Origin: Candidatus Pacearchaeota archaeon
GTDB taxonomy: Archaea; Nanobdellota; Nanobdellia; Pacearchaeales; GW2011-AR1
Direction: 5' to 3'
Length of the DNA stretch: 35,095 bases
Assembly (NCBI GenBank): GCA_018303945.1
Contig: JAGVXD010000008.1
Span: 1-35,095 of the forward strand
Shown: positions 4,187-30,605 of the stretch, piece after piece
Position numbering within the stretch: the stretch's first letter is position 1
Layout of the letters: every line of letters begins with the position of its first letter
Position numbers and translations under genes: made by a program
Notes under the pieces: model-generated
Told to the model about the DNA's origin: nothing
The model's database searches: none
What the model saw: the letters and a program-made list of their open reading frames with translations, nothing else

Positions 4187-4783
4187 TTAATCGCCTTTCC
4201 AATATTTGTGATCTGGAAGATAATCTGTAAGTTTTACTTCTTTGCCTTCTACCTCGTACAAAATTCTACCTCTACGAGAGACGCGAATTGAAAGTCCAGG
4301 CAGATGTTTCAGTCTTTCTTGCTTTCCCAAACCTTTGCTGATTTTATTAATTGCACGTTCAATTTCAGAGTGATTATGTCCTTGTATTGCTCTTTCAAAA
4401 TTCTCTGTTCTGATAATATGTAATTCTTCTTTCTCTTTCCGAGCAAGTTCTCTTTGTCTGTTGTACTCTCTTCGCTCTTCGGCTTTAATATGCCTGCGAT
4501 GTGATCTGTTTACCACATATTTATCTCTTTCAGGAAGCTCTTCATATTTTTCTTCCCCAATCATTTTGCGCAGCACAGATTCGCGTTGATGATAAGCTTC
4601 TGACTCAGAATATGAAATAAGCACAATTCCCAGAGCAATAAACGCCATTCCCAGAATGGAAACGGCTCCCTCTATATTATCTGCGATAACGAAGCCGGTA
4701 ATAGAAGTAAAAACATTCAAAAGAAATAATGTCCCTGCAATAAGAGATAAAATTCCAAGTGTTTTAGGAGTTCTCAAATACAT
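4187..4783 (-). CDS. Unknown two-helix membrane protein with charged cytoplasmic domain
   Basis: A 198-residue protein starting at an ATG. Two hydrophobic helices (about residues 8-32 and 38-58) are followed by a long, highly charged helical region (about 65-130, Glu/Arg/Lys rich, likely coiled coil) and a compact C-terminal segment of about 60 residues with short basic beta-like motifs (SIRVSRRGRILYEV) ending in DYLPDHKYWKGD. No family recognised. The topology suggests a hairpin anchor with a cytoplasmic domain. Confidence 0.6.
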   Translation of the reverse strand: MYLRTPKTLGILSLIAGTLFLLNVFTSITGFVIADNIEGAVSILGMAFIALGIVLISYSESEAYHQRESVLRKMIGEEKYEELPERDKYVVNRSHRRHIKAEERREYNRQRELARKEKEELHIIRTENFERAIQGHNHSEIERAINKISKGLGKQERLKHLPGLSIRVSRRGRILYEVEGKEVKLTDYLPDHKYWKGD

Positions 4784-4869
4784 ATTACTTTTTAGTATTA
4801 TCCATATTAATAAATCTATTTGTTCTCTTGAATCCAGTATAAATTAACCAACCTTTGCGATGCTTATGG

Positions 4870-5376
4870 TCAGGATCTTCTTCCTTGTAATTCCAAAAAT
4901 GCTTTCAATGCTTCTTTAAAGTCCTTTACATCACTCGTCACTATATCCTCAACTCCGTCAATTCTCCCAGGTATTACATATTTGTCATATATTTCTCTTA
5001 GAAACTTATACAATGGAGGACTCTCCCAATTGCTATTAGGGTCTTTGGTTATCATTCCTTTTATCTCCATGCGAAGATTTCCTTTGTTTGTCTTTTTCTT
5101 TTTCCCATCAATTTCCGCTTCTACATCCTGCAGTCCAAATACCTCTATCTTTATTGATATCTCTATTTTGAAATAATCAGACAATTTCTTTCCTAATTTC
5201 CACTCAACAAGTATTTCACGCCCGGCAGGAGTTACCTTTTCCTGATACTTTTCTTCTACCAAACCACCATATTGCTCATCTTTGAACCACTGATAGGAAT
5301 ATTTGTAGAAGTCTTTGAAATTAAATATTCCTTCATGTTCTATCTTCTCTTTTATTAAAACTTCTTTTTCAGCCAT
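4870..5376 (-). CDS. Unknown conserved-looking cytoplasmic protein
   Basis: A 168-residue acidic protein that starts MAEKEVLIKEKIEHEG, without signal peptide or transmembrane segment. Alternating strands in the middle (ILVEWKLGKKLSDYFKIEIS, then KIEVFGLQDVEAEI) followed by two amphipathic helices suggest an alpha/beta fold. Similar short proteins with a YKYSYQWFKDEQY-like start occur in DPANN archaea as far as I recall, but I know no assigned function. It is transcribed divergently from the membrane protein at 5476 and in the same direction as the 4187 gene downstream. Confidence 0.6.
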   Translation of the reverse strand: MAEKEVLIKEKIEHEGIFNFKDFYKYSYQWFKDEQYGGLVEEKYQEKVTPAGREILVEWKLGKKLSDYFKIEISIKIEVFGLQDVEAEIDGKKKKTNKGNLRMEIKGMITKDPNSNWESPPLYKFLREIYDKYVIPGRIDGVEDIVTSDVKDFKEALKAFLELQGRRS

Positions 5377-5475
5377 CTTTTTACAAACTCGGATAGTACA
5401 TGTTCTATTTAAAGATTACCTTAAGGTTTTTTCTCTGGACGATAGTATTTTAAATTTGATTAACTCAAGTTATTC

Positions 5476-6090
5476 ATGGCTGTGAAGAAAGAAGCGGCGC
5501 ATTATCATGTAAAGCGCATTGTAGCAATGGCGGTATCACTCTTTATTTTAGTGGTTCTTTACACTTTCAAGAACATATCTACGTGGACAAGAGCCGGCTC
5601 TACAATATGGCTCGTACTAGTTTTCTATATAATTGACCATTATTTAAACCTAAAGTTTCGCTGGAGGCACTATATATTCATATTATTTATTGCAACGGCA
5701 AGTTTCTTTCTTAGCCAACTCTACTTTCTAGTACCATCATATGATAAGTTTCTTCACTTTATTCAGCCTGTAATGCTTTCTTCAATAGTGTTTCATCTCG
5801 TCACAAAATTGAAAATAAAAACGCATTGGAAACTTATATTTACTTTCTTTATAGTTCTTGGAAGCGTCGGACTATTTGAGTTGGGTGAGTACGGCCTGGA
5901 TTATATTTTTGACTCAAAGCTTCAAGGTGTATTTATAAGAGATTTGCAATCTTTCGAGAAATTAAATATACTGATGGATAGACTTGATGATACTATGATA
6001 GACATGGCTCTTGGCTTTCTTGGCGCAGCGGGATATCTTCTTGCAGGAGCATTTCTCTTTGATAGGATTAAGAATATACATTATCTTTGA
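5476..6090 (+). CDS. YjdF/DUF2238-like integral membrane protein
   Basis: A 204-residue protein with about six transmembrane helices. Two signatures resemble the YjdF/DUF2238 family: YDKFLHF in the loop before helix 4, and the acidic pair region LFELGEYGLDYIF followed later by DDTMIDMALGFLGA, which parallels the family's D-T-x-x-D-M pattern. The family's function is not firmly known. It starts at an ATG after an AT-rich divergent intergenic region shared with the gene at 4870-5376. The motifs can be seen directly; the family call is moderate. Confidence 0.55.
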   Translation: MAVKKEAAHYHVKRIVAMAVSLFILVVLYTFKNISTWTRAGSTIWLVLVFYIIDHYLNLKFRWRHYIFILFIATASFFLSQLYFLVPSYDKFLHFIQPVMLSSIVFHLVTKLKIKTHWKLIFTFFIVLGSVGLFELGEYGLDYIFDSKLQGVFIRDLQSFEKLNILMDRLDDTMIDMALGFLGAAGYLLAGAFLFDRIKNIHYL

Positions 6091-14430: not shown

Positions 14431-16941
14431 GTGGTTTTGTTTACAGAAGAAGTGCAAAAAGCAATAAGAGACGGAGAATATGATTTGGCCATGCAAATAT
14501 CTAAAGATAATTACGTTTCCTCTGCGCTCTCCCCTAATTTTTCAAATGGACTAGAATTATGTCATCAATATACAGAGATTTTAGATCATATTTTAAACAA
14601 AATATTTCTGGAACAAAAAACAAAGACACATATAAGGGGAGATTTTCTCTTCGGAGTAGGCGGGGCTAATGGAAGAAAAGAGACAACTCTAAATTCTGAT
14701 TTGGATATCTTTCTCTTTATGAAAGATATAGAAACAAACAGGAATTTTCTTCAAGAATACACTGCAGATTTTAGAAACACTCTGGAAAATACTTTAGGAT
14801 ATAAAAAAGAGATGATAATCAACTCTCCTCAAGATATAGTAGACCCCTCACTTTTCGGGCAGGAAAAGCTGACTGCTCTCCTGGACTTTAGAAGACTTGC
14901 CGGCTCCCGCAATTTAGAGCATTCTCTGAGGGCACATTTAAGAAAGGCAAGCAAAAAGCAAGAGCTTGAATTTGTTCTTACAAAAATACCTGATATGCAG
15001 AGACGCCATGATAAATATCCTCAAGAGTATGATGAATTGGATTCATTTAATATAAAAGAAGGCAAGGGAGGCCTGCGCGACTTTCAAACAGGTGTCTGGA
15101 TTAAAGCATGGGAAAATTATGACTCGTCAAATTCAATTTATCCGACTTTGGATACAAGACTGATAGATAGCCTTGGAATTCTCTTGAGAACTCGCGCTTG
15201 GATTGCGGCAATGCATTCAAAATCCGGTAAAGATATTTCTGATATTAAAAAAGACGTCTTAAAATATGAGGATTTAACAGATTTAATTAAACATTTTGGG
15301 GAAGAGGAACTAAACTCTCTGATAATGGCAAGAAAAAGAATACATAAATACTCTGCACAAGCCATTCATGAGAGACTATCCAGAGGAATTAATCTGCCAA
15401 GAGGCATAATATACACTCTTGGAGGTTTGTCTTTTGACCAGAGTGTAATTCTTGCGGATAACCAAGAAAGATTCTACAGGCTATTATATGAATCTCAAGT
15501 AAGAAATATCGCTTTAGATCCGGTTATATATCATTCGCTTATTGCAGAAGCAAGCACTACATTAAAAAATAGTTCTGCTTTTCTTGACTTGCTTGCAGCG
15601 CCAGGTTCATTTGCAAAGACAATGGAACATTTATGTGAAATGGATATATTCGAGAGAATTGTTCCCGGATTTGATAAGCTTGAAACGGGGCGCTTTGAAA
15701 TAGGGCATAGACATGAGTACATAACGCGTGGAAGAAGGACTAAAGAAAGACTCAAAAATTTTGAAAATCTGGAAAAAATTATAGATAACGAAGAGATTGA
15801 TAAGCAAACTGAATTCTTCAGGAGAGAATACGGTTATTTGGACAGCACGCAGAAGCAAGTTCTTAGACTCGCACTTCTATGCAAGGACATTCCAACTATT
15901 CTTGATATAAGTCCTGAAAGATATTTTCAGATGTTTTCTTCCTCCTATCCGCATCTGCCAAGGAGTTCGCTTGAAAATATTGCATACATAATCAATAATA
16001 AAAGAATTATATTGGATATTTCTCAAGAAAATATAAGCGAGGATAAAGGAGGAATAGAAAAACTTGCTAGGAGTTCAAACGACTCTTCTTTACTGCGTAG
16101 CCTAATGCTTTTTACATATGCGGACCTAGGGCATATGGAAAAAAACCATATAGGCCGGGATGTTTGGGCTGAAATGATTAATCTCTATAGACATACTCAA
16201 CAATTCTTAGATAATGGCAAATTAGAAGTCTTACGTGATGTATGTGAAGATGAAGAAGGAAATGCCATTCTTAAAGCGATACCAGATGGTTTCTTTGGAA
16301 GCAAGTATGCTAAAGAGAAACAGTCCATAGTATCTATCTTAAAAAAAGTCTCCAAATATCAGAAACCTATTGTGCATTATAAGCCTTACGATGAAGAATT
16401 GGCTTTGATTCAAGTCGTTGCTCCTGACCGTCCGGGAATGCTCTGGAAAATTGCAGGTTCCTTTTACAAACAGCAAATTCCACTGAAACATGCAAAAATA
16501 TATTCTCTTGCAGAGCCAAATAATCTTGCTCTTGACTTATTCGATGTAGAGAGAATAAGCGAAGAAAAAATGCAGGAATGCAGGTCAGAAATAGAACAAT
16601 TGCTGTCTAATGCTGAATCTGACATTTCCATAAACCCTTCCGAGCTCCTATATGAATTAGTAAATGAAACAATATATACAGCTAATCTTTCATCTGTGCA
16701 AGAATCAGATTTATTGCTATTTACTCTGCGTATGCCGAGAAAAAAAGGAATCTTCTACACAACTACCCGTATTCTCGGAGAAGAAACTCATGCAGATATA
16801 AGAAATATGAGGCGTTACTTACATAGTAATGGCGACCTAACATACCGATTTTTCTTTAAAACTCCGCTATCTATTAGGGAAGTTAATAATGTGCTAAAAA
16901 AATATCTTAAATATATTAAGACGAACGAGATAGGGAATTAA
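14431..16941 (+). CDS. GlnD-like PII uridylyltransferase with two ACT domains
   Basis: An 836-residue protein with the full layout of bacterial GlnD. Nucleotidyltransferase domain: GVGGANGRKE (75-84) and NSDLDIF with D90 and D92 as metal ligands. The GlnD linker signature follows (QRRHDKY near 191 and EGKGGLRDFQT near 210-220), then an HD-like region (about 400-500), and two ACT domains (about 656-705 starting LIQVVAPDRPGML, and about 759-812). The HD centre appears damaged: H428 remains, but the HD doublet is K485-D486 and a further conserved His position reads Arg. A nucleotidyl-adding activity is plausible; the removing activity is doubtful. No PII, glutamine synthetase or ammonium transporter gene is near. 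The start is a GTG; an ATG two bases earlier is in another frame that soon stops. Confidence 0.85.
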   Translation: MVLFTEEVQKAIRDGEYDLAMQISKDNYVSSALSPNFSNGLELCHQYTEILDHILNKIFLEQKTKTHIRGDFLFGVGGANGRKETTLNSDLDIFLFMKDIETNRNFLQEYTADFRNTLENTLGYKKEMIINSPQDIVDPSLFGQEKLTALLDFRRLAGSRNLEHSLRAHLRKASKKQELEFVLTKIPDMQRRHDKYPQEYDELDSFNIKEGKGGLRDFQTGVWIKAWENYDSSNSIYPTLDTRLIDSLGILLRTRAWIAAMHSKSGKDISDIKKDVLKYEDLTDLIKHFGEEELNSLIMARKRIHKYSAQAIHERLSRGINLPRGIIYTLGGLSFDQSVILADNQERFYRLLYESQVRNIALDPVIYHSLIAEASTTLKNSSAFLDLLAAPGSFAKTMEHLCEMDIFERIVPGFDKLETGRFEIGHRHEYITRGRRTKERLKNFENLEKIIDNEEIDKQTEFFRREYGYLDSTQKQVLRLALLCKDIPTILDISPERYFQMFSSSYPHLPRSSLENIAYIINNKRIILDISQENISEDKGGIEKLARSSNDSSLLRSLMLFTYADLGHMEKNHIGRDVWAEMINLYRHTQQFLDNGKLEVLRDVCEDEEGNAILKAIPDGFFGSKYAKEKQSIVSILKKVSKYQKPIVHYKPYDEELALIQVVAPDRPGMLWKIAGSFYKQQIPLKHAKIYSLAEPNNLALDLFDVERISEEKMQECRSEIEQLLSNAESDISINPSELLYELVNETIYTANLSSVQESDLLLFTLRMPRKKGIFYTTTRILGEETHADIRNMRRYLHSNGDLTYRFFFKTPLSIREVNNVLKKYLKYIKTNEIGN

Positions 16942-20316: not shown

Positions 20317-23300
20317 TTATATCTCTATTTTTTTGTGTTTAGTCCACCAGTTGTAAATAAGCATGACTAGTATTGCTAAACCTGCTAATATGAAAGAAAA
20401 TATAGTAAACAGGCGCGTCTTTTTAGACCATTTCAATCCAGATTTTTTTAATTCAGTGCTGATTTCTTCAGAATTGTTTACGCCTGATTCTCCCAGTTGA
20501 GATATTGAAACATTGCTGCATGTAAGATTTTCAAATGTCGCGCTCTTGCATGAATTTAAGTCCTTGCAGTATTTTACTTGTACTCCGCTCTTGCATGCAT
20601 CTAGTGTGCATTCCCATTTAGGTGTGCATAAAGCAGTTCCTCCGCCTCCACCACCCCCACCGCCTCCTGATGAACCTCCTGTTTGCTGTGGAGCAGGTGG
20701 CTGTTCAACATTGCAAATTCCGCAATCTTGAGAACATATTGAACAATTTTCTCCCAGATTTACCTCACAAATTGCGTTGCTACACACTGAACTTTCAACA
20801 ACTTCAAATGTGGAAAAATGCGCAACGTTTAATCTAAGAGTTTTAGCAGTTGCATTATAAGTGATGTTGCTGCATATTTCCGGAGGACAAGGTACTCCAT
20901 TGTATAAGACTATTGGACTTATAAAAGAGACACTAGAAAAGGTAAGAAAAGCAGAGTTGTTTAATGCTCCAAGACTTTCATTCAAAGATATTTTATTATG
21001 AGTTATACGCAGGTTTCTGTGAATGTTATTCTTGCTTATGTTTGAAATTGTCAAAATTTCAATTCTTCCGTATGATTTTCTCTCGGCGACAAACCTCATA
21101 TTAGTGATATTATAATTTGAAATAGTTATATTTAGCGCATTATCCCCAAGGGAACATTCAAAACATCCTGACTGCGCGCTGTCTTTTCTATATTGCAGCC
21201 ATTCTTGTTTAGGTGAAAGCGCATCAGCATTTAAGTCCCATACATATATTGTTCCTTCTCTTCTCTGCCTGAATATTCCCATTTCATCCCGCAACATTAC
21301 AGAATCATATGTAGACGAAGCAATAAGCTCAAGATTTCCATCACCATCTAAATCTTTTATTGCAGCCGAAGAATATGGATGAACTTGTGTTCCTTTAGGG
21401 AATCCGGATACAACACTTCCGTTTGAGTGCCAAGCCCAGACACCACCATAATCAGTTGTTCTAGTATATCCAAATCCAGTTTCATACTCAAGAGGAAATG
21501 CGCTTCCCCCAGTAACAAGTATTTCCAGTTTATCATCATTGTCTAAGTCTGCAAGCACCGGTCCATATGATATTGCAGACCTGACTTTTAATATGTCTTT
21601 TGGCCAACTATTCATTAATGAGCCATTGTGGTGTATAACGTATGTATTGTATCCAGTTGCATATATTCCTGCAGAAGTTACAACTATGTCTCTGAATCCA
21701 TCATTGTCAACGTCTCCCAAAGCAAATGATCCATCTGCAATTATATTAACGGCACGACCGTTAGACGAAGTTATATTTTGAAGATAAACCGGAAATCCCG
21801 ATACCAAACTCCCATTTCCCTGATATGCAAAAATAACCAGCTGTTTTGAGTGATCTAATATTCCAAATATAATTTCTGACTTGCTATCGTTTGTAATATC
21901 CCCTACAGATACATGAGTATTTATTGCTGTGCCGTTCATGTATATTGGCCAACCTACAACTTTACTTCCATCACTATTATATGCCATAAGCGAAGTTCCG
22001 GGCGGCACACCTGGGACATTAGGATTGTTCACAAACGATAGCACTATTTCCAGTTCAGGGTCATTATCTAAATTGCCAACTGCGGGATTTTTAAAGTCTC
22101 CATATATGTACAATGGTTGCGGTAATTTCCATTCATGCTCTATTTTGCCATTTTTCAATACAACCACTTTTTCATATTCATCTTCTATAACAATGCTTAA
22201 GAACAAGATTACTTCATCAACACCATCTCTGTCAAGGTCAGAAATAAGTGAGTATGGGATAAAAGCATTGGGAACTGAAACTGGCCAACCATCCTTAACC
22301 GCCCCTTTATGGCTTATTGCATATATAGAGGCATTATATCCTCCTGAATAATTAGTCCTATATAATAGGATTTCATTATACCCGTCTCCATCAATATCTC
22401 CAATTGACGGCTGGGAAAGTATGGACTCTCCTTCAACATTCAATGATTCATTAAATCCTACATTGCTCTCCCACATTATTGAGCCATTTGCATGAAATGC
22501 AAAGAGAGTTGAGTAATAAGAACTGCCAAATCTTCCGCGATTGATTATAATCTCATATGTTCCATCTTTGTCTAAATCTGCAATATTTGGCACAATATCT
22601 CCAGCATATAAATTTCCAAGCCCATATGGAATATGGACTGGCCATCCTTCTCTAAGTGTCTTGTCTATTACCACGTAAGGCAATATATCTTCAACTATTT
22701 TGTCAGTATAATTAACTTGGACTCTGAAATTATATCTTCCCATCGTTTCCAGCACGCTAGTGTTGATAAAAAATACTGCATCCGCACTTTTATTTTTGCA
22801 TAATCCTCTTTCACTAATTTCATTGTATGCAATAAGTGTAGAATTGGAGTTGCAAACCACTAAAGCGTCATGTTTCCATTCACTGCTCGAATCATTAAGT
22901 TTGTATTCAAAAATATATCCTTTAAATATCTCTGAATATATTCTCAATGGACTAATATTTAGATATACTGGAATAAATCCATCTCCTCTGTAAATCTGGC
23001 TTTCCTTTAAGCCTGCAAATTTTATATTGTCAATTTCTATCAAAGACTCATCGTGTAATTTTGTTCCTTCTCCGTTTTTCTCTTCAGCTTTTATAGCATA
23101 TCTTCCTTCTCTTAAAATGAGAGTATCCAATGAGGCATTTACTCTATTCCCGGATACTGATGTTTTTATATCTGTCCAATTTTCCGGAAAAAAGCCTTCC
23201 CCATACGAGATAATTATGCTCTCCGAAACTCCTCCAGATTGTTCTGCTTCAATAGATAATATTCCCTCTACTTTTCCATTAGTTATTAAACGTAATGAGC

Positions 23301-25632
23301 GCTCTTGTTCACGAGTCGCAGCAAGAACATTAATAAAACCGTAACCTTGCTCATTTATTTTTGCAGGAATTGTCAGTTGACTTGCACTGCTTTTCAACGA
23401 TTGTGCAATCTCTTGAGAACTCCATGTTGGATGCTGTTGCTTAAGTAATGCCAAGGCTCCAGTAACATGAGGGGCAGCCATAGAAGTTCCTGAAAGATAC
23501 TCATAAGTTGAAGAGAGCATTGTGGAGTAAATTGCCAAGCCGGGAGCAGTAATGTCTGGCTTGAAAATGCTTCCATTATCCCATATTATTGGTCCTTTAG
23601 AGCTGAAATATGCAAGTTCATTTCCGTTTGAGTCTGCCGCCCCAACAGTTAGGGCTTTGCGAGCAGTTGCCGGAGAACCTATACTTTCCAGAGCTGGTCC
23701 GCTATTGCCTGCTGCAACCACAACGTTCACACCAACATCAACTAAATTGTCAATTGATGTGCTCATTATGTCGTCAGGACCGCATTCAATAGTGTATCCA
23801 CCATAAATTTGAGAACAGCTTACTCCAAGACTTAAACTTGCAATATCAAATCGGTCATCAAAATTGCCGTCCTGATTTGGGTCTGCGACACGTTCTAATG
23901 CTGCAAGAACATTTGCGATACTTCCACCAGAGGGTCCAAGTACTTTATATGAATATAAAGTAGCATCCGGAGCAACTCCATTTAATCCTGTCTGGAAAGA
24001 AGAAGGAGTATGCAATCCAACAAGATTACTTGCCTGTTTAGTGTATAAGGTGCGAGCTTCATCGGCAGAAAATAGTTTGTTATAAACAATTACTTCATCA
24101 ATGCTTCCGTTAAAGAACTGTGTGTTCTGCGTTCCTGCGCCAATAACCACCCAAGTTTGAGGAATAGTAAATTCAACAGGGCTGTTTGCAATAAGAGGCT
24201 GTACCACACCATTAATATATATTTTTTGATGCTGCAAATTTGTGCCATTTCTAGTATAAATTATATGATACCAAGAATTTTCTTTCAAGACATCATTTCC
24301 AGTTTCTGCATTCCAAGAATTAGGCGTGCTTACTGAAATGCGTCCCCGTCCATTACTTCCCGGTCCGACTTCTATTTGGAAAGAGCCCGGAAGATTGGCA
24401 AGTCTTGTTGAATAAATGCCTTGTCGTGAACTTATATTTTTGACATATATCCATGCTGAAAATGTAAATTCTTTGTTTAGATTTAGAGAAATAGATGCAG
24501 GTATTCGGATTTGGGTTCCATTTCCATAAAACTGGAATGATTTTCCATTTATTCCTTCATTTTTCGCTCTTACTCCGTTAAAGCTTTGCCCATTGTTTAT
24601 TCCCATGCCGTCTTTTATCTCTCCTACGTTTCCCCTCAATATGCTCTCATTGAATTCCCAGTAGCTTATAGGAGACGCTAGGAATACGAGCGCATTTGAT
24701 TCTTTCTTAGCCGCTATAATTCCAGCAACATGAGTGCCATGCCCATCATCATCCATGGGATCAGAATCATTATTTACAAAGTCCCAGCCGCCTGCAATCT
24801 TGCATCCTGCACCAAAACATCCTCCTAAATCAGGATGTGTATAATCTATTCCTGTATCTATAACTGCTACTTCTACTCCCTTTCCAGTTAAGCATGATTT
24901 CCCGCTTGTTGCACAGGGATTTCCCTCGCTATCGCGATTCCATACTTCTGAAGCGTGAATGCCTGGAACAGATGAAGTAAGCAACGCATTGACATGCAAA
25001 TTGGGATAAACTCTTTTTACATAAGGAGAAGACTTAATTTTCTCGGCTTCTTCCTCGCTTATGTTAAGCAATATGGCATTTGATACAGCATAATATTCCT
25101 GTAATGGCTCTAAGAATGCATTTTCTTCTATAATTGCTCCAGTTATTGATGAAGAGAAGAAACTTATCCATGGCAAAGTAAAAGCAACTATGTTTTGAAT
25201 CTCCCTTTCTTCAGAGACATGTCTTTCTGTCTCTATCCTTCCGCTGATATCCATCAATGCTTTTTTGTGTTCTTTAGATATCTTCTCTCTTCTTCCTTCA
25301 ATGTAATTAGGCATGCTCTCTTCCACATCTCTTGCCAGTCTATCAATCTTTTTTGCCTGACTTATCTTATTGCTCTTCTCAAAAGCCCTCTTTCTTTTTT
25401 CGAGACTATCCAAATATCTCTCTGAAAAAGCGATATCGGATAATAATGGCAGCTCTTTAAACTCAACTATATATCCGTAAGATATTTTAGAAGTGCTATT
25501 TTTAAAGTCTTCTCTTGAACTTATGTTCAAATTATACTCTGGAAGAGAAGATGAAGAAGTTATGTCTAATATTATAAACAAAGCTAAGAAAAAGATAAAT
25601 ACTGCAAAAATCACCCTGAACTTCATCTTCAT
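20317..25632 (-). CDS. Giant cell-surface subtilase with LamG insert and FG-GAP repeats
   Basis: A 1771-residue S8 protease. Order: signal/anchor helix (5-24), prodomain (about 50-225), catalytic domain with D259 (VIDTGIDYTHPDLGG), H298 (GHGTHVAG), N643 (AAGNSGP) and S717 (GTSMAAPHV). A LamG/concanavalin-like domain (about 318-531) is inserted between the His and Asn blocks. Next come beta domains, then eight FG-GAP/VCBS-type calcium repeats (about 1015-1440; DLDKDGTYEI, DIDGDGYNEI, DLDGDGNLEL and others). A module at 1500-1612 is shared with the protein at 1042. A cysteine-rich segment, a run of ten glycines (about 1656-1665), a CTPKWECTLDAC module and a final transmembrane helix (about 1743-1760) with a basic tail complete it. 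It should be anchored and face outward. It follows the HAD gene by 12 bases. Confidence 0.9.
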   Translation of the reverse strand: MKMKFRVIFAVFIFFLALFIILDITSSSSLPEYNLNISSREDFKNSTSKISYGYIVEFKELPLLSDIAFSERYLDSLEKRKRAFEKSNKISQAKKIDRLARDVEESMPNYIEGRREKISKEHKKALMDISGRIETERHVSEEREIQNIVAFTLPWISFFSSSITGAIIEENAFLEPLQEYYAVSNAILLNISEEEAEKIKSSPYVKRVYPNLHVNALLTSSVPGIHASEVWNRDSEGNPCATSGKSCLTGKGVEVAVIDTGIDYTHPDLGGCFGAGCKIAGGWDFVNNDSDPMDDDGHGTHVAGIIAAKKESNALVFLASPISYWEFNESILRGNVGEIKDGMGINNGQSFNGVRAKNEGINGKSFQFYGNGTQIRIPASISLNLNKEFTFSAWIYVKNISSRQGIYSTRLANLPGSFQIEVGPGSNGRGRISVSTPNSWNAETGNDVLKENSWYHIIYTRNGTNLQHQKIYINGVVQPLIANSPVEFTIPQTWVVIGAGTQNTQFFNGSIDEVIVYNKLFSADEARTLYTKQASNLVGLHTPSSFQTGLNGVAPDATLYSYKVLGPSGGSIANVLAALERVADPNQDGNFDDRFDIASLSLGVSCSQIYGGYTIECGPDDIMSTSIDNLVDVGVNVVVAAGNSGPALESIGSPATARKALTVGAADSNGNELAYFSSKGPIIWDNGSIFKPDITAPGLAIYSTMLSSTYEYLSGTSMAAPHVTGALALLKQQHPTWSSQEIAQSLKSSASQLTIPAKINEQGYGFINVLAATREQERSLRLITNGKVEGILSIEAEQSGGVSESIIISYGEGFFPENWTDIKTSVSGNRVNASLDTLILREGRYAIKAEEKNGEGTKLHDESLIEIDNIKFAGLKESQIYRGDGFIPVYLNISPLRIYSEIFKGYIFEYKLNDSSSEWKHDALVVCNSNSTLIAYNEISERGLCKNKSADAVFFINTSVLETMGRYNFRVQVNYTDKIVEDILPYVVIDKTLREGWPVHIPYGLGNLYAGDIVPNIADLDKDGTYEIIINRGRFGSSYYSTLFAFHANGSIMWESNVGFNESLNVEGESILSQPSIGDIDGDGYNEILLYRTNYSGGYNASIYAISHKGAVKDGWPVSVPNAFIPYSLISDLDRDGVDEVILFLSIVIEDEYEKVVVLKNGKIEHEWKLPQPLYIYGDFKNPAVGNLDNDPELEIVLSFVNNPNVPGVPPGTSLMAYNSDGSKVVGWPIYMNGTAINTHVSVGDITNDSKSEIIFGILDHSKQLVIFAYQGNGSLVSGFPVYLQNITSSNGRAVNIIADGSFALGDVDNDGFRDIVVTSAGIYATGYNTYVIHHNGSLMNSWPKDILKVRSAISYGPVLADLDNDDKLEILVTGGSAFPLEYETGFGYTRTTDYGGVWAWHSNGSVVSGFPKGTQVHPYSSAAIKDLDGDGNLELIASSTYDSVMLRDEMGIFRQRREGTIYVWDLNADALSPKQEWLQYRKDSAQSGCFECSLGDNALNITISNYNITNMRFVAERKSYGRIEILTISNISKNNIHRNLRITHNKISLNESLGALNNSAFLTFSSVSFISPIVLYNGVPCPPEICSNITYNATAKTLRLNVAHFSTFEVVESSVCSNAICEVNLGENCSICSQDCGICNVEQPPAPQQTGGSSGGGGGGGGGGTALCTPKWECTLDACKSGVQVKYCKDLNSCKSATFENLTCSNVSISQLGESGVNNSEEISTELKKSGLKWSKKTRLFTIFSFILAGLAILVMLIYNWWTKHKKIEI

Positions 25633-26525: not shown

Positions 26526-27257
26526 TTACTTTTTAGCACTTTTCCATAAAAGCTCAAAATGCTTTCTATAACCTTCAGCAGCATCTTTGTCATGTATAAG
26601 TATTCCGTAAGGGTCTTTAGTAAATATTGCTATAGCAACGTAATCTCCAATGATGACTGTTTCTGAGAGTTGTTCAAATTCTTGTGGTAAAAACCGAATC
26701 TCAGTATATGGGAGTTTATTAAGAGATTCTCCATATGCTTCTATTGTTATATCGAAAACTTGTCTTGATTTTATTTTCTTACCAATTCTTTTAATATGAA
26801 GATTTCTCCACCAGGTTTCACCCATTATATCGAAAGTGACTCTTTTACCTCCTCCAAATGTATTGTATTCTTTTCCATTTGAATTTAAAAGTTCCATATA
26901 CATCTGTGTAATTCCTTTTTTGCCTTTGAATGTAATAGCTTCTTTAATCTCTTTAGCAGCTTTCTTTCTTTTCTCAAGCTCTGGGATTATTTCTTCGAAT
27001 TTTCGTTTCTTGTCTTCAAGATAACCTATAAAATTTCTTGGGTCGGATATCTGATAAGTTCTACCTCTCCCCTCAATGCTATATGTAATAAGGCCTTTCG
27101 CTATGAGTGAATGTAATGCTCTATGTACAACTGAATTCTGGAGATTTGTTTTTTCAATTATAAGTCCTGCTAGACTTGAACCCAATTCAGAAAGAGCAAG
27201 GTATACTTTTATTTCTCCATTTGTAAGACCTAAGTCTTCAAGTATAGACATATCCAT
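26526..27257 (-). CDS. TrmB-family transcriptional regulator
   Basis: A 243-residue regulator. The N-terminal winged helix-turn-helix (about residues 4-70; LEDLGLTNGEIKVYLALSEL, then NSVVHRALHSLIAKGLI and the wing YSIEGRGRTYQI) is followed by a coiled coil rich in Glu and Lys (about 80-105) and a C-terminal effector-like domain (about 110-240). This is the TrmB/Sugar-specific regulator layout of archaea. The ligand is unknown. It is divergent from the asparagine synthetase gene with 95 bases between starts, so it likely controls that gene and itself. It lies within the tRNA-bounded island. The ATG at 27257 is used; an in-frame ATG two codons later is equally possible. Confidence 0.88.
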   Translation of the reverse strand: MDMSILEDLGLTNGEIKVYLALSELGSSLAGLIIEKTNLQNSVVHRALHSLIAKGLITYSIEGRGRTYQISDPRNFIGYLEDKKRKFEEIIPELEKRKKAAKEIKEAITFKGKKGITQMYMELLNSNGKEYNTFGGGKRVTFDIMGETWWRNLHIKRIGKKIKSRQVFDITIEAYGESLNKLPYTEIRFLPQEFEQLSETVIIGDYVAIAIFTKDPYGILIHDKDAAEGYRKHFELLWKSAKK

Positions 27258-27352
27258 ATACTATCTACATAACTTTCCTTATTTAAATCTTACTATAATA
27301 GTCTCAATTGGGAGCGTATATACTTAAAATGCTATCTTAATCTCTTTTTTCT

Positions 27353-29593
27353 ATGTGCGGAATAATAGCGATATTTGGGGAAAGTGAAAACCTTCGAAGA
27401 GATATAAGAATCTCTCTTAGAAAGATAAAGCATAGAGGTAGCGATAGATATGAGTCAATAACCTTTGACTCTTGTGCTTTAGGAGTAAATAGATTAGCAA
27501 TTATAGATAGAGACAAAGGAAAACAGCCATTTGCCAATGAAGATAGTACTGTTTTCGCCATACAAAACGGAGAAATATTCAACTATAAGGAATTAAAAGA
27601 ATCTCTTATAAGAAAAGGACATCATTTCAAAACAGATTGCGATACGGAAGTTCTGGTTCATCTTTGGGAAGAATACGGAACTGAAATGATTAGTAGGATT
27701 GACTCTGAAATGTATGCCTTCGTTATATATGATAAAAGAGACGGTAATATTTTTATTGCGAGAGATCCACTAGGAGTAAAACCTCTTTGTTATGCTTATG
27801 ATAAAAAAGGAAGACTATTTGTTGCTTCTGAAATAAAACAACTCTCTCAATTTAAAGAAATAGATGAAATAAGAGAATTTCCTTCAGGACATTTCTATCA
27901 CAAAGGAAAGTTCACAAAATATTATTCATATTCTAAAGAATTTAATAGTAATTCTGAGGAGAAAATAAAGAAAGATTTAAAAAAACTCATTGAAGAGGCT
28001 GTTCAAAAAAGAGTGCAAACTGATTTACCTATTGGTGTATTTCTGAGCGGTGGAGTTGACAGCAGTTTAATTATGGAATTAGCAACAAAGTACCACAAAG
28101 ATGTTACTGCGATTATACTTGGGACTAAAAGTTCTTCTGATTATATCAATGCAGTTAAACTATGCAAAGAAAGAAAATGGAAATATAATGTAATAGAACC
28201 AAATATAGATTATGAAAAAGAGTCTAAAGAGATAGTATATTATACAGAATCGTTCGAACCAAATATTATAAGACATTCTTTTGCTAATAATCTTGTATCT
28301 AAAGCTGCTTTAGAGCTTGAATTAAGAATAGTTCTTGTTGGAGAAGGTTCTGATGAATTATTTGGTGGATACAATGAATTTTTAGAATTGCCAAATAATA
28401 AGATTAACTTTGGTTGTATTAAACTACTTGAATCTATGTCAAAAGGTCATATGATGAGAGTAGATAAGATGGCTATGCGACGCACCATAGAAGTACGTAG
28501 TCCTTTCTTTGATACATCTTTGGTAAATTATGCTTTATCTATTCCTGGAGAGTTAAAGGTTAAGGAATCAATTACAAAATATATCTTGCGTGAAGTTGCA
28601 AAAGATTATCTCCCCGAATATATCGCTTATAGGCATAAAGCTCCTTTTGCAAATGGGGCTGGAATGAATGTGGGAACTAATTTTAATAAGGGAGATGGAA
28701 TAGTGGGTGAAATTGCTAATAAAAAAATCTCCGACAAAGTATTCGCTAAAATAAAGAGTCAATTTAAACAATACAATTTTAAAACTAAAGAAGAAATTTA
28801 CTATTTTTTATTTTATCTTAAATTTAATTATAATAAGTTTAAAGATGGAGAGCAAAGATTAATTATGAAAGATAACCTTTCATCTATAATTAAAGATAAT
28901 GGGCAAATAGTAAATAATATCCTCTCTTTCTTATTAAACCATAAAAGAACAGATAGAGCAGAAACATTCAAATTTAATCATTTTTCTCTTTTAAAAGAAT
29001 CAATAAGTGATGTTCTTGAAAAGAAAGAAGAATTGAAAATTGTTGGTTATTGGGGAGTTGAAAAAGAAGAAGTGACGGATATAGACAAAGACGCTCTCAA
29101 TCAATTAAGTAAAATACAAGAAGGAATTAGAGAATATTATGAAAATACCAAATTAATTTTAATTTTAACAGACATACACGGAGAATTAAATAAAATTTCT
29201 TCTAAAACTATTAGTTCATATTATAAAATTATTCAGACTACATGTTATAAACTTGGAATAAAGACCATCTCCCTATCTCAACTATGGGTTAAGTATGGCT
29301 ATAAACTAGAAGATTTAAATAAGAATTCTATGGCACAAGACAAAATAAAGTCATTTATGGTTCTTGCAGCTCAAAGACATCATCATGGAAACGATGCAAA
29401 AAAAGGCCTTTTATCTTACATGAAATGTTCTGAATATGATAAATTAATTATTTATAATGAATTTTCAAAGTCTTTATTTTTTACGTATAATGGCTATAAA
29501 TGGAAATCTTTACTTCCACCTTTACCAACTTTATCCTTATGGGTTAGCAAAAAAGGAAATCATATAAAGCCATGGCACAATTATGAATCGTGA
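27353..29593 (+). CDS. asnB: Asparagine synthetase (glutamine-hydrolysing) fused to an unknown C-terminal domain
   Basis: A 746-residue protein. Residues 1-190 are a class II glutamine amidotransferase (MCGIIAIFG with Cys2 nucleophile, QNGEIFNY, and DPLGVKPL). Residues about 200-490 are the ATP-dependent synthetase (FLSGGVDSS at 230-238, GEGSDELFGGYNEF, VDKMAMRRTIEVRSPFFD). Ordinary AsnB ends near residue 500; here about 240 further residues follow, with a motif LILILTDIHGELN (601-613), LSQLW (641-645) and a basic QRHHHGNDAKKG stretch. I do not recognise this domain. A CTTAAAAT box (27323-27330) lies about 26 bases before the ATG, so the mRNA is probably leaderless. The gene sits in the tRNA-flanked island next to a TrmB regulator and its AT-richness is marked. 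A special amide-forming role is possible. Confidence 0.88.
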   Translation: MCGIIAIFGESENLRRDIRISLRKIKHRGSDRYESITFDSCALGVNRLAIIDRDKGKQPFANEDSTVFAIQNGEIFNYKELKESLIRKGHHFKTDCDTEVLVHLWEEYGTEMISRIDSEMYAFVIYDKRDGNIFIARDPLGVKPLCYAYDKKGRLFVASEIKQLSQFKEIDEIREFPSGHFYHKGKFTKYYSYSKEFNSNSEEKIKKDLKKLIEEAVQKRVQTDLPIGVFLSGGVDSSLIMELATKYHKDVTAIILGTKSSSDYINAVKLCKERKWKYNVIEPNIDYEKESKEIVYYTESFEPNIIRHSFANNLVSKAALELELRIVLVGEGSDELFGGYNEFLELPNNKINFGCIKLLESMSKGHMMRVDKMAMRRTIEVRSPFFDTSLVNYALSIPGELKVKESITKYILREVAKDYLPEYIAYRHKAPFANGAGMNVGTNFNKGDGIVGEIANKKISDKVFAKIKSQFKQYNFKTKEEIYYFLFYLKFNYNKFKDGEQRLIMKDNLSSIIKDNGQIVNNILSFLLNHKRTDRAETFKFNHFSLLKESISDVLEKKEELKIVGYWGVEKEEVTDIDKDALNQLSKIQEGIREYYENTKLILILTDIHGELNKISSKTISSYYKIIQTTCYKLGIKTISLSQLWVKYGYKLEDLNKNSMAQDKIKSFMVLAAQRHHHGNDAKKGLLSYMKCSEYDKLIIYNEFSKSLFFTYNGYKWKSLLPPLPTLSLWVSKKGNHIKPWHNYES

Positions 29594-29843: not shown

Positions 29844-30605
29844 ATGAAAACATTTAACCTAAAGGAGTATATCCCAATTGATTATCCAGGTTGGGTTTTA
29901 GGAAATGAAGCGAGAAGTGGTGTTAATATAAATGGGCTTGGAGTTTTAACACAAAAAGAATTAGAACTTTGGAATTATTCTGCTCATTACCAAGATCAAA
30001 GAAAAGATCCCGGGCATGGAGAAATATCAACTCTTCTTGGAATAAGACTTCTTGATTATTTGCCAGGAATAAGAGAAATTGTTGTTCCAAGTATAATCTT
30101 TCATGATACTGGATGGTACGGGAATGATCCTGAAGAATGGAAAAAATTAGTAGAGTTAAATAAAGGTAATCTAAAAGTCTTAGATTCTGAAGAATTGAGA
30201 AGACCGCATCAAAATAGAGGGATTATGGTCGCTGGAAGAGGTTTTAAACAAATAGGTTATCCCTCTGAAGAATATCATTTTGAAATTGCAGATATAATTG
30301 GAGACCACGATACAAGAAAACTTCCAACAACCGATAGTGGAATAATTATGAGAATTGCAGATTTATTATGGAGAGTTACATATCCTCATGCTCAAATATA
30401 CATGGCAGATTGGAGTCCAGAAAATATATTTAAAAGAGTGAAAGAAACTTGCATAGAAGGAGAAAAAACTCATTTAGGAGAAGTTGGATTAAGAATCGGA
30501 AGACTAGAATTTGCAAATACAATGTTTTTTAAATTTGGAAAAGAAACAGAAAGGGTTCTCTTACCAGAATACAAAGAGGAATTAGAAAGAATTGTTCAGT
30601 TTTAA
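29844..30605 (+). CDS. HD-domain phosphohydrolase
   Basis: A 253-residue protein with the metal-binding HD pattern: H58 in DPGHGEIS, H87-D88 in IIFHDTGWYG, H122 in RPHQNRG, H155-D156 in GDHDTRK and D173 in RIADLLWR. The order fits an HD phosphohydrolase with one or two metals, acting on nucleotides or phosphate esters. No signal peptide. It starts at an ATG, 250 bases after the synthetase gene and beyond the tRNA-Val half, and is the last gene before the right tRNA-Gln repeat. Substrate unknown; association with the synthetase is positional only. Confidence 0.8.
   Translation: MKTFNLKEYIPIDYPGWVLGNEARSGVNINGLGVLTQKELELWNYSAHYQDQRKDPGHGEISTLLGIRLLDYLPGIREIVVPSIIFHDTGWYGNDPEEWKKLVELNKGNLKVLDSEELRRPHQNRGIMVAGRGFKQIGYPSEEYHFEIADIIGDHDTRKLPTTDSGIIMRIADLLWRVTYPHAQIYMADWSPENIFKRVKETCIEGEKTHLGEVGLRIGRLEFANTMFFKFGKETERVLLPEYKEELERIVQF

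Follow-up and report, generated by a model that had tools for sequence, protein, structure and literature searches.

Isocyanide synthases of the PvcA/IsnA and Dit1 type (Pfam DIT1_PvcA, PF05141) are known mainly from Proteobacteria, Cyanobacteria, Actinobacteria and fungi, where they occur as single domains or as fusions with a dioxygenase or NRPS (PMC5974471). Isonitrile formation need not be the task of every superfamily member, as Dit1 suggests (PMC7345447). A relation between cyclodipeptide synthases (CDPS) and tyrosyl-tRNA synthetases (TyrRS) has also been described (PMC7566563). The papers searched contained no description of an AsnB fusion of the kind reported here.

We show the fold, the homology, the recurring AsnB pairing and the regulator linkage of a domain encoded in the window, by which we mean the whole 35,095-nucleotide stretch analyzed (contig JAGVXD010000008.1, Candidatus Pacearchaeota archaeon), from a MAG that encodes the archaeal ribosomal proteins S3Ae and L44e. 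The domain very probably belongs to the isocyanide-synthase (DIT1_PvcA) structural superfamily, as a divergent and compact (~215 aa) member from archaea.

An AsnB protein with an additional C-terminal domain

A single uninterrupted frame of 746 aa (27353-29593, + strand) encodes a canonical glutamine-dependent AsnB (residues 1 to ~500) followed by a C-terminal domain (~530-746). The AsnB part (27353..28852, +) consists of an N-terminal Cys glutaminase and an asparagine synthetase domain, which are matched by Pfam GATase_7 and Asn_synthase within the N-terminal ~500 residues and by NCBIfam AsnB (PRK09431) over residues 1-491. All main AsnB motifs are kept within residues 1-500, as MCGI, SGGVDSS (the SGGxDS PP-loop) and GEGSDELFGGY (GEGxDE) are intact, and the protein differs from AsnB by its extra domain. 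No other Asn_synthase was found in the 87%-complete MAG.

Past the AsnB part, no Pfam or NCBIfam model matches above its curated threshold. The first-pass annotation had proposed an extra domain at residues 505-746; the domain is real, as it lies in the same frame and recurs in relatives, and residue 505 does correspond to position 28865, but the conserved part begins nearer residue 530. Alignment with the protein of genome G072 shows residues ~500-530 (28853..28948, +) to be a variable linker, and the isocyanide-synthase-superfamily-like domain, supported by profiles and an AF2 model, spans residues 533-746 (28949..29590, +).

Searching related archaea iteratively (1,651 genome searches, repeats counted) identified the domain in 11 genomes, all archaeal, and, in addition, one very diverged relative. 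Most pairs share only 21-40% identity. The G072 protein has the same two-domain layout as that of the window, with 42% identity across 751 positions covering the whole length, and in G222 a single 1026-aa frame encodes AsnB and the tail domain with an NMT1/THI5-like segment of substrate-binding-protein fold between them (L020:5348-6220; 24.1 bits, cut-off 20.5). Recurrence in G072 and, with the extra domain inserted, in G222 shows that the fusion did not arise through faulty assembly. The two genes are separate, adjacent and overlapping in G433 (locus L022; AsnB at 4350-5864, domain gene from 5864), so that AsnB accompanies the domain in 4 of the 11 members, three times fused and once adjacent; occurrence in both fused and split form is a classical sign of a functional pair.

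Stand-alone copies, which had been suggested as something to look for, make up 7 of the 11 members (G433, G323, G289, G287, G351, G583 and G582, the last apparently split by a frameshift), and in G498 the domain is fused behind a winged-helix-like N-terminal region. Two scans of genome contigs recovered only the G072 relative, and neither one scan of viral contigs nor a plasmid tblastn with the domain as query found any. Weak matches in G051, G056, G211 and G574 were rejected as TyrRS, and others, such as those in G057 and G321, as unrelated proteins. The very diverged relative (G664, L078:316-1236) contains SPWG...K, ADTYGIEING and a terminal PW, and adjoins a gene for a 302-aa protein that by eye resembles an amidohydrolase.

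Kinship and fold of the domain

Scanned alone, the tail scores 16.8 bits against DIT1_PvcA (E 0.0049), below the gathering score of 26.4 bits that strict PF05141 membership implies. Six of the first eight members individually match this model weakly (best 3.8e-5). A single-sequence PDB search with the domain gave nothing useful; a profile of the 11 members searched against all PDB chains had 9dhm (E 2e-4) and 9dh4 (E 4e-4), both isonitrile synthases, at the top, followed by TyrRS (E 0.04 and weaker). Profile-profile comparison (hhalign) related the domain both to six isocyanide synthases from plasmids (E 5.6e-6, score 49) and to archaeal TyrRS (E 2.6e-7, score 57), the highest score among the nulls (60 column shuffles and the reversed profile) being 20. 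The alignment with the isocyanide synthases can be carried over the full length of the domain, from the N-terminal helices to the terminal PW, which is collinear with their TPWH. Isocyanide synthases and TyrRS did not match each other directly in this comparison, so a common origin of the two, both of which are matched by the domain profile, becomes testable.

A first structure model, led by the window sequence (pLDDT 79), had TyrRS as its best PDB match (TMq about 0.5), isonitrile synthases being absent among the 50 PDB matches listed, and a cyclodipeptide synthase as its best viral (BFVD) match. A second model, made with AF2 from 11 sequences and led by the stand-alone G323 copy, reached pLDDT 94.7 and pTM 0.90, and isonitrile synthases take all eight top places among its PDB matches (PIsnA, PvcA; E 1e-8 to 5e-6; TMq 0.61-0.67), the PIsnA entries holding L-Tyr or the isonitrile product, with TyrRS as the second group from E 1.5e-4. 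Together with the null-controlled profiles, the G323-led model places the domain in the PvcA/IsnA fold, and a resemblance to PvcA/Dit1 that had been only weakly held thus proved right at the level of fold. Its Rossmann core is similar, too, to the part of TyrRS that binds the amino acid.

Conservation was used to judge which residues may form the active site. W-G after strand 1, H609, N613, Y623, L641 and Y689 are invariant in all 11 members, K571 does not vary in the alignments of 8 and 9 members, and F709, P725, G735 and the final PW are nearly invariant across the 11. The W567-G568-x-x-K571 segment (29051..29065, +) stands where isocyanide synthases have F-P-x-K-S, and the near-invariant P740-W741 (29570..29575, +) closes the domain. 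TDIHGELN (606-613), LSQLW (641-645) and QRHHHGND, singled out in the first-pass annotation, are all present; the alignment is poor around QRHHHGND, which is not a conserved motif. D607-x-H609-x-x-x-N613 (29171..29191, +) stands in place of SDGxxFxD of the isocyanide synthases and resembles the ADLHAxLN segment of archaeal TyrRS; nothing favours the metal binding once proposed for it, and D607 is replaced by T in 2 of 11 homologues. SDGxxFxD, RS and RLSIHPQ are invariant in the six isocyanide synthases and absent from 11/11 members of the domain family. The domain is therefore treated as a new branch of the superfamily and not as an isocyanide synthase, and its chemistry may differ.

The similarity to TyrRS raises an alternative, which we regard as unlikely, in which the domain is an activated-amino-acid enzyme whose TyrRS-like core, devoid of HIGH and KMSKS, would use an aminoacyl-tRNA or aminoacyl-carrier to form an amide or peptide bond, as cyclodipeptide synthases do, with AsnB supplying or amidating the amino acid. 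The TyrRS profile score, the rank of TyrRS in both models and the viral CDPS match speak for it. So does a 317-aa SerRS-like ligase gene (L063:1924-2874, - strand) that overlaps the start of the domain gene in G582; its product lacks the N-terminal tRNA-binding part, has methanogen-type SerRS as its best NCBIfam match (178 bits, C-terminal half only) and might charge a molecule other than tRNA with an amino acid. Against it, isonitrile synthases outrank TyrRS in the PDB for both the sequence profile and the better model. Membership in the cyclodipeptide synthases themselves was rejected: the domain has no profile similarity to them, and the position of their catalytic Ser (GxS, after strand 1) is occupied by W in alignments read by eye. 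Its match in the PDB confirmed that the CDPS query was AlbC. A PF16715 search of this genome gave no match, and hhalign of the domain against the CDPS profile scored at the level of the shuffles, which is weak evidence against a relation because the same test misses the known one between CDPS and TyrRS.

A different archaeal protein of 333 aa (G265, L067:6262-7260) passes the DIT1_PvcA gathering score (27.0 bits, residues 112-215); its gene adjoins one that by eye resembles that of a radical SAM protein.

A linked TrmB-type regulator and other neighbours

A TrmB-type regulator (26526..27257, - strand; Pfam TrmB, 36.7 bits) is transcribed divergently from the fusion gene. Its co-occurrence with the domain, which had been put forward as a check, was borne out, as such a gene is divergent to the domain gene in six genomes. 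These regulators form two clades, one in the window, G072 and G433 (60-69% identity) and one in G287, G351 and G583 (64-69%), with about 33% identity between them. A promoter box AATAGTCTCAATTGGGAG (27297..27314, +), a candidate TrmB site or promoter element, is common to the window, G072 and G433, and G351 and G583 carry the inverted repeat TGTTGTGTA-N4-TATACAACA, with a similar element seen by eye in G287. An exact copy of the window box occurs nowhere else in the genome, and the regulator therefore looks local.

The linkage to TrmB bears on a further alternative, in which the domain is a non-catalytic amino-acid sensor that tunes AsnB and, via TrmB or a fused DNA-binding region, transcription. 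The winged-helix-like part fused to the domain in G498, the TrmB gene as the only obvious partner in G351 and G583, and an AsnB half that is complete without the domain are consistent with such a role. It is nevertheless improbable given the homology of the domain to enzymes and the invariant polar residues (K, H, N and two Y) in pocket-type positions, since sensor domains do not usually keep such residues across 20-40% identity.

The HD gene of the window (29844-30605, +), which encodes an HD-like 253-aa protein with no Pfam or NCBIfam match, had likewise been named for a check of co-occurrence; no copy is present in the other domain loci, and it was rejected as a partner of the fusion. A defence role was also rejected, as PADLOC gave no match. 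The domain gene of G287 adjoins one for a tryptophanase-like lyase; like the SerRS-like ligase of G582, this neighbour acts on amino acids, in keeping with an amino-acid-modifying role of the domain. Elsewhere in the window lie a gene for a 1771-aa protein with subtilase, Laminin_G_3 and FG-GAP repeats (20317-25632, -), which is large for such a small genome, and one for an 836-aa protein (14431-16941, +) whose only matches are to DUF294/GlnD-type nucleotidyltransferases, near the N-terminus.

Proposed function and comparison with known systems

AsnB and the domain most likely form a bifunctional, TrmB-controlled enzyme. To the full reading, that of a superfamily member fused to AsnB in a bifunctional, TrmB-controlled, amino-acid-modifying enzyme, we assign a probability of about one half. 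Counting against it are the lack of the classical isocyanide-synthase residues, the TyrRS matches of the window-led model and the presence of AsnB beside only 4 of the 11 members. The domain is inferred from its invariant residues and homology to be catalytic, probably with an amino acid as substrate and with both halves acting in one pathway; the earlier suggestion that the fusion is a new two-step enzyme is plausible. Pairing with AsnB beside a dedicated regulator suggests an unrecognized amino-acid pathway.

A tentative mechanism can be outlined. The AsnB half would hydrolyse glutamine and, by way of an acyl-adenylate, form asparagine or a different amide. An amino acid or derivative would be bound by the C-terminal half, in the pocket corresponding to the Tyr site of PIsnA and TyrRS, and modified there, probably at the amine, with W-G-x-x-K, D-x-H-x-x-x-N and two tyrosines putatively replacing the classical isocyanide-synthase residues. 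It is a more doubtful idea that this DPANN branch preserves the evolutionary connection that joins isocyanide synthases to class Ic aminoacyl-tRNA synthetases and that the AsnB fusion represents new chemistry with a new product.

With this domain, the isocyanide-synthase superfamily gains a compact archaeal branch with new partners, namely AsnB, an NMT1-like domain and a regulator. In archaea whose genomes measure ~0.8 Mb, one would not expect a regulated enzyme dedicated to modifying amino acids. That the domain is an ordinary isocyanide synthase, converting an amino acid and ribulose-5-phosphate to an isonitrile, is very unlikely despite the fold match to ligand-bound PIsnA and the shared residue positions, given the missing signatures, the shorter domain and the absence of a PvcB/IsnB-type dioxygenase from the domain neighbourhoods read.

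Among known systems, cyclodipeptide synthases (PF16715) are like the domain in size and in their TyrRS-like Rossmann fold, and AlbC and Rv2275 have D-x-H after strand 2 as the domain does. Class Ic TyrRS share with it the Rossmann core, the Y/F-W-G strand end and the D-x-H-A-x-L-N-like segment, whereas HIGH, KMSKS and the anticodon-binding part are absent from the domain. PvcA/IsnA/PIsnA and Dit1 (PF05141) are closest, as they share its fold, a collinear profile and the positions of K, an acidic residue, Y, L and PW. They are longer (~310 aa compared with ~215-250 aa, a difference of about 90 residues), and while they are fused or adjacent to a dioxygenase or NRPS, the domain described here is paired with AsnB, in DPANN-type archaea.
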